DNA of 28,033 bases. It comes from a virus. The position numbers were made by a program, and so were the translations under genes. Positions 5,931 to 27,836 of this stretch are shown here, in pieces. The stretch spans positions 1 to 28,033 of the IMG/VR virus record IMGVR_UViG_3300023174_000531; one strand, written 5' to 3'. Under the pieces are notes generated by a model. It saw nothing but the letters and a program-made list of their open reading frames with translations, did no database searches and was not told the DNA's origin. Positions within the stretch are counted from its first letter, which is position 1. Each line of letters starts with the position of its first letter.

Positions 5931-6152
5931 ATGAAAAACCTTGCATGGAAATTGCTCTTACCCTTAGTTGTTTGTTTTACTGTCGGTTCATCGACAGCTT
6001 ATGCAGAGGCACAAACGAAAGAAGTGTGCCATGATAAAGCAGGTAAAGACGGCAAACCAATAACTGGTAAAGACGGCAAAGTTGTACAAGAATGTAAAAA
6101 AATCAAAGTACACAAAAAACTAGAAGGCACAGAAGTTCCTGTGAAGAAATAA
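5931..6152 (+). CDS. Secreted small basic protein with GKDGK repeat, 73 aa
   Basis: I start at ATG 5931, which has an AGGA site upstream; a longer in-frame version would begin inside the previous gene. Residues 1-25 form a signal peptide (Lys at 2 and 7, hydrophobic core LLLPLVVCFTVG, AYA cleavage). The mature part is about 48 residues, very rich in Lys and Gly, with an imperfect repeat GKDGKPITGKDGKVV and two cysteines. It should be exported to the periplasm. No family is recognised. The next gene begins directly at its stop. Confidence 0.55.
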   Translation: MKNLAWKLLLPLVVCFTVGSSTAYAEAQTKEVCHDKAGKDGKPITGKDGKVVQECKKIKVHKKLEGTEVPVKK

Positions 6153-6458
6153 ATGGCGACTACGACAGAACGACTTGGTATTGTTGAAACTAAGGTACAA
6201 AACTTAGATGAGAAAATTGATGATCTTAAAATAGATGTTAAAGATATGCATGATTGCCTTGATAAAACGAGGGAAAGCTTGACAGATAAGTTGAATACGA
6301 TGTATGATGCTTCTTGTAACCAACATAAATCTTTAGCTGAAGAAATTAATGCATTGAAATCTCAAAGAGACAAATGGTTGTGGACTGCCGCCGGTGCAAT
6401 TGCCGTCATGGGTTGGGTATCTGGCCATGCGGAAACATTGATAAAATTCATTAGTTAG
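6153..6458 (+). CDS. Coiled-coil protein with C-terminal membrane anchor (XhlA-like), 101 aa
   Basis: Residues 1-72 are predicted to form long helices with heptad-like hydrophobic spacing (LGIVETKVQNLDEKIDDLK and further). Residues about 75-92 are hydrophobic (LWTAAGAIAVMGWVSG), giving a tail-anchored topology. This resembles XhlA/hemolysin-type small phage lysis accessory proteins, which pair with holins at the inner membrane; the match is to architecture only. It starts on the base after the previous stop and is the last gene before a strong promoter, so it closes the lysis block. Confidence 0.55.
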   Translation: MATTTERLGIVETKVQNLDEKIDDLKIDVKDMHDCLDKTRESLTDKLNTMYDASCNQHKSLAEEINALKSQRDKWLWTAAGAIAVMGWVSGHAETLIKFIS

Positions 6459-6460
6459 CC

Positions 6461-6489
6461 TTGACAATGACTGAGAGGTGTGTTACAAT
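6461..6489 (+). promoter_or_regulatory. Sigma-70 promoter with extended -10 before the primase
   Basis: TTGACA (6461-6466), a 17-base spacer and TACAAT (6484-6489), with TG one base before the -10 (extended -10). Transcription should begin near 6495-6498, at or just before the primase ATG at 6498. The mRNA would then be leaderless or nearly so. Confidence 0.75.
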
Positions 6490-6497
6490 ATGAGACT

Positions 6498-7526
6498 ATG
6501 TTACACACCGACTCAAAATACATCAAACTGGTTTCTTCTCGCTTGCGTAACTTCAAGCAGAAGGATGCCTATCTTTGGAACTTTTCCTGTCCCATCTGTG
6601 GCGACAGTCAAAAGAATAAATTAAAAGCCCGTGGTTATGTCTTCAAAAAAGGCAATGATCTATTCTATCGTTGCCATAACTGTGGCATAGGAACTAGTCT
6701 TGCCAATCTCCTTAAAAACCTCGATACCGCATTACACAGCGAGTATGTTCTTGAACGATACAAAACGGGTGAATCCGGTGTTAAGAACTATTCCAACGAG
6801 GCGATTTCCGTACCATCCCCCAAGTTTGGAAGATTACAGAAGTCTAAAGTCTTCGAACACGCTGAATGGATCAATAAATTACCATCTGAGCATTTCTGCT
6901 TAATATATGCGTCAAAAAGACTGATTCCGACTCAGTTTTACGATAAATTACTGTTTACCAGTCATTATAAACAGTTTATTACGACACTAGTTCCAGATCA
7001 CGGAAAACAGCTGCTGGATGACGCTAGGCTTGTAATACCGTTCTATAACGTGTATAATGAACTTATCGCTGTATCTGGCAGAGCTTTAGAGACTAGTGAT
7101 AAAACTCTACGATATGTAACAATCCGTGTCAAAGAAAGTGATGACAAACTTATCTATGGGTTAGATAGAGTTGATTTGAATAAACCCGTAAAGATTGTAG
7201 AAGGTCCAATCGATTCTATGTTCTTGAGCAATTGTGTCGCCTCTGGTGATGCTAACTTGACTATAGTGGCAAAAGATATAGATTGTGCTAAAAAAATATT
7301 GATATTTGACAATGAACCACGAAATAAAGAAATCGTGAAGATGATGCAAGATGCAATCAAATCAGGGCATAATATTGTTATTTGGCCTGATACGATTAAA
7401 TCTAAAGATATTAATGAGATGGTAATGAGTGGCATTTCTGTGGATGAAATTGAAAGTATTATAAGTAGGAACACCTTTACAGGTCTTGAGGCGCAAGCCA
7501 AATTTGTTTTTTGGAAGAAAATATAA
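6498..7526 (+). CDS. DNA primase, T4 gp61-like, 342 aa
   Basis: The protein makes RNA primers for lagging-strand synthesis with the replicative helicase. An N-terminal zinc ribbon is clear: CPIC at 31-34 and CHNC at 59-62. The Toprim part contains KIVEGPIDSMFLSN (about 228-241) and ILIFDNEPRN (about 266-275), giving the Glu and Asp metal-binding residues. From ATG 6498 the length is 342 residues, the length I recall for T4 gp61. A GTG six codons upstream (6480) lies inside the promoter and is unlikely to be in the transcript. It is the first gene of the replication and nucleotide block. Confidence 0.88.
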   Translation: MLHTDSKYIKLVSSRLRNFKQKDAYLWNFSCPICGDSQKNKLKARGYVFKKGNDLFYRCHNCGIGTSLANLLKNLDTALHSEYVLERYKTGESGVKNYSNEAISVPSPKFGRLQKSKVFEHAEWINKLPSEHFCLIYASKRLIPTQFYDKLLFTSHYKQFITTLVPDHGKQLLDDARLVIPFYNVYNELIAVSGRALETSDKTLRYVTIRVKESDDKLIYGLDRVDLNKPVKIVEGPIDSMFLSNCVASGDANLTIVAKDIDCAKKILIFDNEPRNKEIVKMMQDAIKSGHNIVIWPDTIKSKDINEMVMSGISVDEIESIISRNTFTGLEAQAKFVFWKKI

Positions 7527-13623: not shown

Positions 13624-14442
13624 ATGAAGAAGTTTTTGATATTACTAGCACTATTCAGTAGTGCTGCTTTTGCTTGGGATCAACGGGCACCCAATCCAGT
13701 AGATGCATGTAAAGTGCATAGTCCATATGGTTTTGCAGCCGTAAAAAGACCAGTACAACCAATCTGCCGTGAGGCTTATTTGGTGGCCTATGATGCACCA
13801 GTTAAGATTCCAGCATACGTTGCATATACATTAGAACCCGCAAAAGCAATTGGTTGCTTTCCACGCACTAATGCATTTGTTGCGGATCAATCATTAGGTG
13901 GCACAGGTGCAAGACCAGATGATTATGCTGGTACAGGATACGATAAGGGTCATGCGGCACCAGATGGTGATTTATCATGGTCACAACAAGTGGAGTACGA
14001 ATCTTTTTTAATGACAAACATGTATCCCCAAGCCGGATCTTTAAATCGGGGAATATGGAAATTACTAGAAACATCAGTAAGGGGCTGGGTAGTGCAACTC
14101 AACCAACCTTTTACTATATACGTTGGCGCATTCTATGGCGCTGGTGATAAAACAATAGGTAACGGTGTTTTGGTGCCACATGGATATTATAAAATTGTAA
14201 TTAATAACACCACGCACGAAGTTGCTGGTTGGAAGTTTCCACACAACCCACCATATCCTAATTTAGGCAATAACCTTCAAACATACAGATTACCAATTTC
14301 TGCAATACAACAAGAAGCTAACATTAAGTTTGCTTTCCCTGTAAACGCAAAAGAGATTGATCCTGGAAAAGAATGGCCTGTGGATTATGGTAAATTAACT
14401 AACGCAAAACGTGCCAAGTGTGGCGCCAATGCATCCGAATAA
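13624..14442 (+). CDS. Secreted DNA/RNA non-specific endonuclease, 272 aa
   Basis: Residues 1-17 form a signal peptide (cleavage after AFA). The beta-beta-alpha-metal nuclease core is visible: YDKGHAAPDGD (106-116) corresponds to the DRGH motif with Arg replaced by Lys and catalytic H110, and TNMYPQAGSLNRGIW (131-145) supplies the Mg-binding Asn. Five cysteines (29, 48, 78 and the C-terminal end among them) fit a periplasmic or secreted enzyme. It would degrade DNA or RNA outside the cytoplasm. Possible roles are nutrient scavenging from host debris, attack on incoming competing DNA, or DNA clearance at lysis. Confidence 0.85.
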   Translation: MKKFLILLALFSSAAFAWDQRAPNPVDACKVHSPYGFAAVKRPVQPICREAYLVAYDAPVKIPAYVAYTLEPAKAIGCFPRTNAFVADQSLGGTGARPDDYAGTGYDKGHAAPDGDLSWSQQVEYESFLMTNMYPQAGSLNRGIWKLLETSVRGWVVQLNQPFTIYVGAFYGAGDKTIGNGVLVPHGYYKIVINNTTHEVAGWKFPHNPPYPNLGNNLQTYRLPISAIQQEANIKFAFPVNAKEIDPGKEWPVDYGKLTNAKRAKCGANASE

Positions 14443-26742: not shown

Positions 26743-26766
26743 AGTTCTTTAAAAATTTAATGCGTT
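26743..26766 (+). promoter_or_regulatory. boxA-like antitermination element, copy 1
   Basis: AGTTCTTTAAAAATTTAATGCGTT, present identically at 27230-27253. Its core resembles bacterial rRNA boxA (TGCTCTTTAACAATTT in E. coli), which recruits NusB/S10 to stop premature termination on untranslated RNA. It sits four bases before tRNA-Gln. Confidence 0.6.
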
Positions 26767-26770
26767 TTGA

Positions 26771-26844
26771 TCCCGAATGGTGTAGTGGTAGCACAGCAGA
26801 CTTTGACTCTGTTAGTATAAGTTCGATTCTTATTTCGGGTGCCA
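26771..26844 (+). tRNA. tRNA-Gln (TTG)
   Basis: Complete cloverleaf with CCA encoded. The anticodon loop CTTTGAC is flanked by GCAGA and TCTGT; anticodon TTG at about 26804-26806. Positions 1 and 72 are T-T, a weak end pair as usual in tRNA-Gln. The T-loop TTCGATT is present. Confidence 0.93.
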
Positions 26845-26879
26845 TATAAAAACATATTGTGAAGTGTGTTTCTATATGG
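26842..26879 (+). repeat. Long hairpin joining tRNA-Gln and tRNA-Ser
   Basis: Bases 26842-26856 pair with 26865-26879: 14 of 15 match, loop of eight. The stem includes the CCA end of tRNA-Gln and the first GG of tRNA-Ser. It could be a processing signal (RNase III or RNase P/E) in the precursor. Confidence 0.5.
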
Positions 26880-27064: not shown

Positions 27065-27141
27065 GTAGGTGTGTCGCCGAATGGTTAGGCTACGGATTGC
27101 AAATCCGTTTTATGCAGGTTCGAGTCCTGTCACCTACTCCA
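27065..27141 (+). tRNA. tRNA-Cys (GCA)
   Basis: Acceptor GTAGGTG pairs perfectly with CACCTAC; discriminator T before CCA is typical of tRNA-Cys. The anticodon loop TTGCAAA between ACGGA and TCCGT gives GCA. It starts two bases after the previous tRNA. Confidence 0.93.
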
Positions 27142-27157
27142 GTTGTAAAAATACAAC
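27142..27157 (+). repeat. Short inverted repeat after tRNA-Cys
   Basis: GTTGTA and TACAAC flank an AAAA loop. No T-run follows, so termination is unlikely. It lies just upstream of the next promoter and could be an operator or processing stem. Confidence 0.35.
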
Positions 27158-27173
27158 ACTATGAAAATAGTTG

Positions 27174-27201
27174 TTGACAAAAAATGTGGTTGTGATATAA
27201 T
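27174..27201 (+). promoter_or_regulatory. Consensus sigma-70 promoter inside the tRNA array
   Basis: TTGACA (27174-27179), a 16-base spacer and TATAAT (27196-27201), with TG one base before the -10. It should transcribe tRNA-Glu and what follows. CTACCCATAGATTGAG directly after the -10 matches the start region of the promoter at 19722. Confidence 0.88.
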
Positions 27202-27229
27202 CTACCCATAGATTGAGAAATCGATCAAA

Positions 27230-27253
27230 AGTTCTTTAAAAATTTAATGCGTT
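27230..27253 (+). promoter_or_regulatory. boxA-like antitermination element, copy 2
   Basis: Identical over 24 bases to 26743-26766. It lies 28 bases after the -10 box and six bases before tRNA-Glu, as boxA lies in rRNA leaders. Confidence 0.62.
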
Positions 27254-27258
27254 AATAT

Positions 27259-27334
27259 GCACCATTCGTCTAACGGTTAGGACGCTGCCCTTTCAAGGCG
27301 GAAACGAGGAGTTCGATTCTCCCATGGTGTACCA
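27259..27334 (+). tRNA. tRNA-Glu (TTC)
   Basis: Acceptor GCACCAT pairs with ATGGTGT (one G-T), CCA encoded. The anticodon loop CTTTCAA between CTGCC and GGCGG gives TTC. The 3' flank (CCATACTAAAACATATTG) resembles the flank of tRNA-Gln. Confidence 0.93.
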
Positions 27335-27353
27335 TACTAAAACATATTGGGTT

Positions 27354-27375
27354 AAAAACTCCAGTAGGTTTTTTA
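27354..27375 (+). terminator. Weak AU-rich terminator-like hairpin
   Basis: AAAAACT pairs with GGTTTTT across a six-base loop and runs into a short T-tract. Only two pairs are G-C or G-T, so it would be inefficient. It may end or attenuate the tRNA-Glu transcript. Confidence 0.3.
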
Positions 27376-27383
27376 TTTGGTCT

Positions 27384-27676
27384 AATGTACCTGCCGAGGT
27401 ACGCTGAATAAAAAACATGATGCCTTCCGATGGTGCTGGATAAAGTTTAATTGTAATGTGGAAGTTGTCTTATCGGTAGACGAAACCGTGAGAAGCCAGA
27501 TGAAGTTCTGGAACGACAATGACACCCCAATGTGTTTTAGTATGGTATCATTTGTTTTGCTGATTGTAAGCCATGGGGGAAACGTCAACCCTGAGTAACT
27601 GCGTACATAAACGGTAGTGTGGCCACCAATTCCGTTGAGCGTAGCAAATAGTGCAGTCAGCAAAACAAATAATATT
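27384..27676 (+). ncRNA. Candidate structured non-coding RNA within the tRNA array
   Basis: No convincing ORF occupies the 345 bases between tRNA-Glu and tRNA-Lys. The RNA can form a hairpin GTACCT/AGGTAC (27387-27402); a three-way-like unit with outer stem 27464-27469/27515-27520 enclosing CGGT/ACCG and CCAGA/TCTGG hairpins; and a long helix 27550-27568/27652-27670 (14 perfect Watson-Crick pairs plus five with wobble). Inside that helix are GCCAT/GTGGC and a bulged hairpin at 27597-27617. Phage tRNA arrays are known to carry unusual RNAs (GOLLD, ROOL, T4 RNAs C and D). I cannot match this to any of them, and it is shorter than GOLLD or ROOL. tmRNA and RNase P signatures are absent. Confidence 0.45.
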
Positions 27677-27679
27677 TTT

Positions 27680-27753
27680 GGGGGTATAACTTAGTGGTAA
27701 AGTAGTAGGCTTTTAACCTATTAACCGGAGTTCAATTCTCCGTGCCCCTACCA
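27680..27753 (+). tRNA. tRNA-Lys (TTT)
   Basis: Acceptor GGGGGTA pairs with TGCCCCT with G-T at both ends of the G-run; CCA encoded. The anticodon loop CTTTTAA between GTAGG and CCTAT gives TTT. Confidence 0.92.
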
Positions 27754-27761
27754 AAAAATTA

Positions 27762-27836
27762 GGCTCGTTAGTATAATGGTCATTACAGCGGATTGTCTAT
27801 CCGCTTATGGGAGTTCGATTCTCCCACGGGTCGCCA
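27762..27836 (+). tRNA. tRNA-Asp (GTC)
   Basis: Acceptor GGCTCGT pairs with ACGGGTC using two G-T pairs; CCA encoded. The anticodon loop TTGTCTA between GCGGA and TCCGC gives GTC. Confidence 0.92.

Follow-up and report, generated by a model that had tools for sequence, protein, structure and literature searches.

The locus

The window analysed here, a stretch of 28,033 nt of DNA taken as a whole, from an uncultured lake-type virus that infects bacteria, carries an array of tRNA genes in which 345 nt separate the end of tRNA-Glu (27334) from the start of tRNA-Lys (27680). The RNA of this gap has a predicted folding energy of −113.2 kcal/mol, compared with −81.4 ± 5.6 kcal/mol for 100 shuffled versions (z = −5.7). 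The original prediction had placed in it a single structured RNA of about 300 bases, inserted among the tRNAs and without a plausible plus-strand open reading frame. The location within the tRNA array was confirmed, and the list of reading frames contains none of 60 or more amino acids on the plus strand of the gap. A mechanical 93-amino-acid frame is present on the minus strand; the alignments described below contain frame-breaking indels and compensatory pairs there and have no codon structure.

Of the proposed helices, the one joining 27550–27568 to 27652–27670 was predicted by folding exactly as given, with 19 pairs and a perfect 14-bp core formed by ATTTGTTTTGCTGA and TCAGCAAAACAAAT. A second unit of several helices at 27464–27520 also exists, but it is merely one arm of a larger domain, which had been missed and is closed by a 21-bp stem: an inverted repeat of 27330–27351 with 27526–27547 encloses the first two thirds of the gap. 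The idea of one RNA of about 300 nt had to be given up, since the gap is made of two separable modules, here called D1 and D2, each of which is found elsewhere without the other (Table 1). The 12/12 consensus promoter lies upstream of tRNA-Glu, and the copies of AGTTCTTTAAAAATTTAATGCGTT precede two parts of the tRNA array (26743–26766 and 27230–27253); in other phages, a leader of the same type is found upstream of D1 as well.

Table 1. Features of the gap between tRNA-Glu and tRNA-Lys and of its surroundings (window positions)
Feature	Position	Strand	Evidence or remark
Promoter	27174..27201	+	TTGACA and TATAAT with a 16-nt spacer, the latter hexamer preceded by TG; 12/12 consensus
boxA-like leader AGTTCTTTAAAAATTTAATGCGTT	27230..27253	+	24 nt; exact second copy at 26743–26766 (0 expected)
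tRNA-Glu(TTC)	27259..27334	+	usually the gene next upstream of D1 or D2
D1 RNA, ~215 nt	27330..27547	+	closing inverted repeat, covariation, ~109 contigs
D1 closing stem, 5' arm	27331..27351	+	pairs with 27526–27546; inverted repeat, covariation
D1 apical hairpin, GCCG loop	27387..27402	+	loop is G[AC]CG across D1 members
D1 hairpin CGGUA-GACGA-AACCG	27474..27488	+	loop GACG invariant (40 sequences); 4/5 stem pairs covary
D1 closing stem, 3' arm	27526..27546	+	pairs with 27331–27351; inverted repeat, covariation
D2 RNA, ~121 nt	27550..27670	+	covariance model R1 match at 27548–27673 (135 bits), covariation, ~123 contigs
D2 closing stem, 5' arm	27550..27568	+	pairs with 27652–27670
D2 loop AAACGUCAA on GGG/CCC hairpin	27580..27588	+	invariant in the 49-sequence alignment A1; replaced in other subfamilies
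D2 hairpin AACGG...CCGUU, bearing the palindromic loop	27610..27636	+	alignment, covariation
D2 palindrome GUGGCCAC, proposed symmetric kissing loop	27619..27626	+	palindrome covariation
D2 closing stem, 3' arm	27652..27670	+	pairs with 27550–27568
tRNA-Lys(TTT)	27680..27753	+	downstream neighbour

Two covarying RNA families

Homologues were collected by exact-pattern scans of IMG/VR, with counts made by regular expression. D2 was found on ~123 distinct contigs and D1 on ~109, all of them uncultured metagenomic contigs, and the two occurred together in 41 of the fetched loci. In the D1 alignment of 40 sequences, 93.8% of the cells of its 52 pairs can pair, and in the D2 alignment of 49 sequences the same holds for 97.7% of the cells of its 34 pairs, figures that are favoured by the structures having been derived from the same alignments. 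Both sides had changed in 35 of the 52 pairs of D1 and in 21 of the 34 pairs of D2, counts that none of 500 shuffles reached for either RNA. The covariation score was 0.401 for D1, against 0.178 in shuffled data and at most 0.104 when the partners were slid, and 0.325 for D2, against 0.135 and at most 0.070. As the slid control retains the relatedness of the sequences, the excess is not explained by shared ancestry alone. Folded by itself, D2 has a z-score of −4.4. A pseudoknot suspected in D1 proved to be nested pairing, and the idea that loop GACG of D1 might contact loop ACGUC of D2 was rejected because two loci (L136 and L171) keep GACG while their D2 loop has changed.

A search of Rfam 15 with cmscan at gathering scores returned tRNAs alone; with the threshold relaxed to E ≤ 10 over 27100–27800, it added two chance matches to unrelated eukaryotic RNAs. 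Diverged members were likewise blank against Rfam, and D1 and D2 matched nothing among 4227 families beyond chance-level similarities to eukaryotic RNAs. The covariance models for tmRNA, RNase P RNA and group I introns found no match in the gap, nor did those for GOLLD and ROOL in D1 or D2. Comparison by blastn with 50,697 records of named phages and with 72,556 plasmids gave chance matches of ~19–30 nt and nothing else, while the pattern of the D2 core had a single match in 84,980 species genomes, a chance one in Paenibacillus (L105). Several pattern matches on viral contigs were also judged on inspection to be due to chance and were dropped (L003, L004, L006–L010, L012, L041, L060, L083 and L095). 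Within the collections searched, the distribution of D1 and D2 is phage-only. No description of either RNA was found in the open-access journal articles searched. The suggestion that the gap holds a new phage RNA has thus stood up, with no credible Rfam match, more than 100 contigs for each module and strong covariation of the helices: D1 and D2 each represent a new RNA family, though of a kind already known.

Hairpins resembling an empty D1 stem, with arms ATAAAAACATATTG...TGTGTTTCTATAT like those of the D1 closing stem and almost no content, lie between tRNAs at 26842–26877 of the window and upstream of D2 in locus L035.

Genomic settings

Both RNAs are commonly neighbours of tRNA-Glu. In a first set of 90 D2 loci, D2 directly follows tRNA-Glu in 30 and directly precedes it in 13, an insert of the size of D1 lies between tRNA-Glu and D2 in 26, and no tRNA is present in 8. 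Among 90 D1 loci, 51 have D1 directly after tRNA-Glu and 14 directly before it, and 10 are without a tRNA. D1 occurs without D2 in L011, L128 and L144, and D2 without D1 in L014, L018 and L040. The same slot holds D1 alone, D2 alone, D1 with D2 or D1 with a third element, D3, and the RNAs thus appear as exchangeable modules. D3 is ~150 nt long with closing arms AGTGTTATC...GATAACACT and takes the place of D2 downstream of D1 in tRNA arrays (at approximately 10040–10180 of L118, and in L110, L117, L122, L159, L166 and L169); the loci scanned gave it no Rfam match at gathering scores.

Where tRNAs are missing, D1 has its own promoter of the TTGACA...TACAAT type in front, and D2 lies between protein genes with the same core and an unrelated closing stem. 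In two such loci, a conserved reading frame lies upstream of D2, which takes up the space between it and the next gene, one for a DNA polymerase of polA type in L018 and a small HTH-like gene in L021, and L234 is a further D2 locus without tRNAs. Diverged copies of D2 follow tRNA-Ala or tRNA-Val (L106 to L109, L120 and L140); the phage of L107 looks T4-like from its reading frames, some of which we take to be of clamp-loader and RegA types.

These settings bear on what the RNAs do. D1 and D2 lie directly against the CCA end of tRNA-Glu and stop a few nucleotides before the next tRNA, and another part of the array (26842–26877) contains simple hairpins with similar stems; both modules could accordingly be long spacer hairpins that direct cleavage of the tRNA precursor by RNase III or RNase E and have no role once excised. 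We regard this as unlikely, because both RNAs stand alone in phages without any tRNA at the locus, and their invariant motifs outside the stems and the palindromic loop of D2 far exceed the needs of a cutting site. A cis-acting role for one or the other, as a riboswitch, translational regulator or self-cleaving ribozyme serving its own transcript, would agree with the highly conserved single-stranded core and with the position of D2 in L018 and L021, immediately before the start codon of a protein gene. It is nevertheless improbable because the genes downstream are unrelated, most of them being tRNAs; the models of known ribozymes and riboswitches gave no match, and a palindromic loop would be unexpected in such an element.

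Some carriers also encode other RNAs. Upstream of D1 in L138, positions 6082–6501 of the minus strand contain a permuted betaproteobacterial tmRNA (123 bits for RF04321 and 112 bits for RF01850), which suggests that at least some carriers infect Betaproteobacteria, and ARAGORN flags similar tmRNAs in L112, L146, L157 and L180.

A switching palindrome in the D2 loop

The apical loop of D2 was palindromic in all 28 distinct versions, over 6 to 10 nt, with 26 palindromes of at least 8 nt and two of 6 nt; palindromes of at least 8 nt occur in 3.1% of background 16-nt windows. The central tetranucleotide of these loops was GGCC, AGCU, UGCA or UCGA, always with self-complementarity kept, and a fifth centre, AAUU (in CAAUUG), was seen in the diverged T4-like group. 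We counted at least 17 switches of the centre on a poorly resolved tree of 114 columns built without the loop, and D2 RNAs differing at just one to four core positions carry different palindromes. Alignment columns 86–89 hold G–C in 26 sequences, A–U in 11 and U–A in 9, with none broken; this pair cannot form in cis, as the 2-nt loop left between its halves would be sterically impossible. A scan with a pattern free of the loop then recovered 14 new distinct loops, every one palindromic over at least 6 nt and 13 over at least 8 nt, as had been predicted beforehand.

A palindrome that switches while remaining self-complementary, and that cannot pair in cis, implies a symmetric kissing-loop homodimer, and judging from these sequence patterns D2 very probably works in this form. 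A cryo-EM study of OLE, ROOL and GOLLD takes the switching of palindromic tetranucleotides as evidence that molecules meet through symmetric kissing loops, with the same type of argument applied to OLE L9.3 and GOLLD L21a (PMC12286853); D2 has the pattern on which that argument turns there, a palindrome within one loop that covaries where pairing in cis is impossible. One contig of 524 kb, IMGVR_UViG_3300027749_002876, carries two D1–D2 cassettes whose RNAs are nearly identical and whose palindromes, GUGGCCAC (L046) and CCAGCUGG (L065), do not match. This fits homotypic pairing; the contig may represent a jumbo phage or be chimeric.

Selection on the palindrome could in principle act in DNA, on a protein-binding or restriction/modification site, and many D2 palindromes happen to be sequences that type II enzymes recognize. 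We give this explanation very little weight: the palindrome always forms part of the apical loop of one conserved hairpin in the RNA, its place and strand relative to the core are fixed, and its sequence, unlike that of a site bound by a protein, is free to change.

The other hairpin loop of D2 reads AAACGUCAA in most members and varies to UUGAUCAU, a GUAC or UGUACA loop, a UUGCAA loop, AAUCGUAAC and AUUGCUAA. In the window (27580–27588) and its homologues it tends to short palindromes (ACGU, UGAUCA, UGUACA and UUGCAA), the exceptions being AAUCGUAAC and AUUGCUAA. A palindrome of at least 4 nt is found in four of the six kinds of loop, a proportion not significant by itself. More speculatively, the switching palindrome might serve as a self-recognition code, by which each lineage pairs only with its own kind and two D2 RNAs sharing a cell or a genome make separate homodimers, and the second conserved loop, being ACGU, UGAUCA, UGUACA or UUGCAA depending on the subfamily, might provide a second symmetric contact that extends the dimer into a chain or ring of D2; we put this combined reading forward tentatively and rather doubt it.

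Relation to known RNAs

The pRNA of phage phi29 is, like D2, a small phage RNA (~120 nt) that oligomerizes through loop–loop pairing, but it does so with two different complementary loops and in DNA packaging, whereas D2, which is associated with tRNA genes, uses a single self-complementary loop. OLE forms an RNA dimer in which the kissing loop switches between palindromic tetranucleotides, from GGCC to GAUC or AGCU (PMC12286853); it differs in being ~600 nt long, in belonging to extremophilic Gram-positive bacteria, in binding OapA/OapC and in giving no covariance-model match. GOLLD is phage-encoded, often in tRNA islands, known from lake metagenomes and equipped with symmetric kissing loops with a switching palindrome, and ROOL is an RNA-only multimer of the phage tRNA-island niche (PMC12286853). 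GOLLD, however, often exceeds 800 nt and assembles into a 14-mer cage, and ROOL is a large RNA with an 8-mer cage and another secondary structure; the former has no sequence or covariance-model match to our RNAs and the latter no covariance-model match.

The resemblance to GOLLD and ROOL that had been pointed out at the start therefore extends to the genomic niche and, for D2, to probable homo-oligomerization, but not to kinship by covariance-model search, and the large, ornate architecture is not shared by RNAs of ~215 and ~121 nt. The idea that D1 and D2 are diverged forms of GOLLD, ROOL or some other Rfam family is scarcely credible at these lengths and with no match in 4227 families save the chance-level ones to eukaryotic RNAs, even though phage tRNA islands, lake-type metagenomes and probable homo-oligomers are common ground (PMC12286853). 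By analogy, D1 and D2 may work like the small end of the OLE/ROOL/GOLLD class, of which they are, by the tests run, members of none.

A model for D1 and D2

We consider it probable that D1 and D2 are independent structured noncoding RNAs, co-transcribed with the tRNAs, with D2 as a homodimer and both acting in trans as structural RNAs. The promoter at 27174 would drive them together with the phage tRNAs, and the tRNA maturation enzymes working on either side would probably excise them from the precursor. D2 is predicted to fold into a closed, multi-branched structure, and its palindromic apical loop would form a kissing contact with its counterpart in another D2 molecule, the homodimer being the working form strongly implied by the sequences; D1 would likewise be a folded RNA, with G[AC]CG as the invariant loops of its hairpins. 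During infection, both would most likely act as stand-alone structural RNAs. As has been proposed for OLE, ROOL and GOLLD, they might expose their invariant unpaired motifs for binding by a partner from the host or the phage, for instance a protein or the ribosome.

Natural RNA homo-oligomers are rare (PMC12286853, PMC7357161), and those known from phage tRNA islands are very large and obscure in function. D2 is small enough to be made in vitro, and its proposed contact exists in natural variants, which makes its dimerization, specificity and role in infection directly testable. The presence of two unlisted families on more than 100 phage contigs suggests that the neighbourhood of tRNA-Glu is a docking place for exchangeable noncoding RNAs.

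Elsewhere in the window, positions 13624–14439 encode a predicted DNA/RNA non-specific endonuclease (PF01223), adjoining nucleotide-metabolism genes (ribonucleotide reductase and ThyX).
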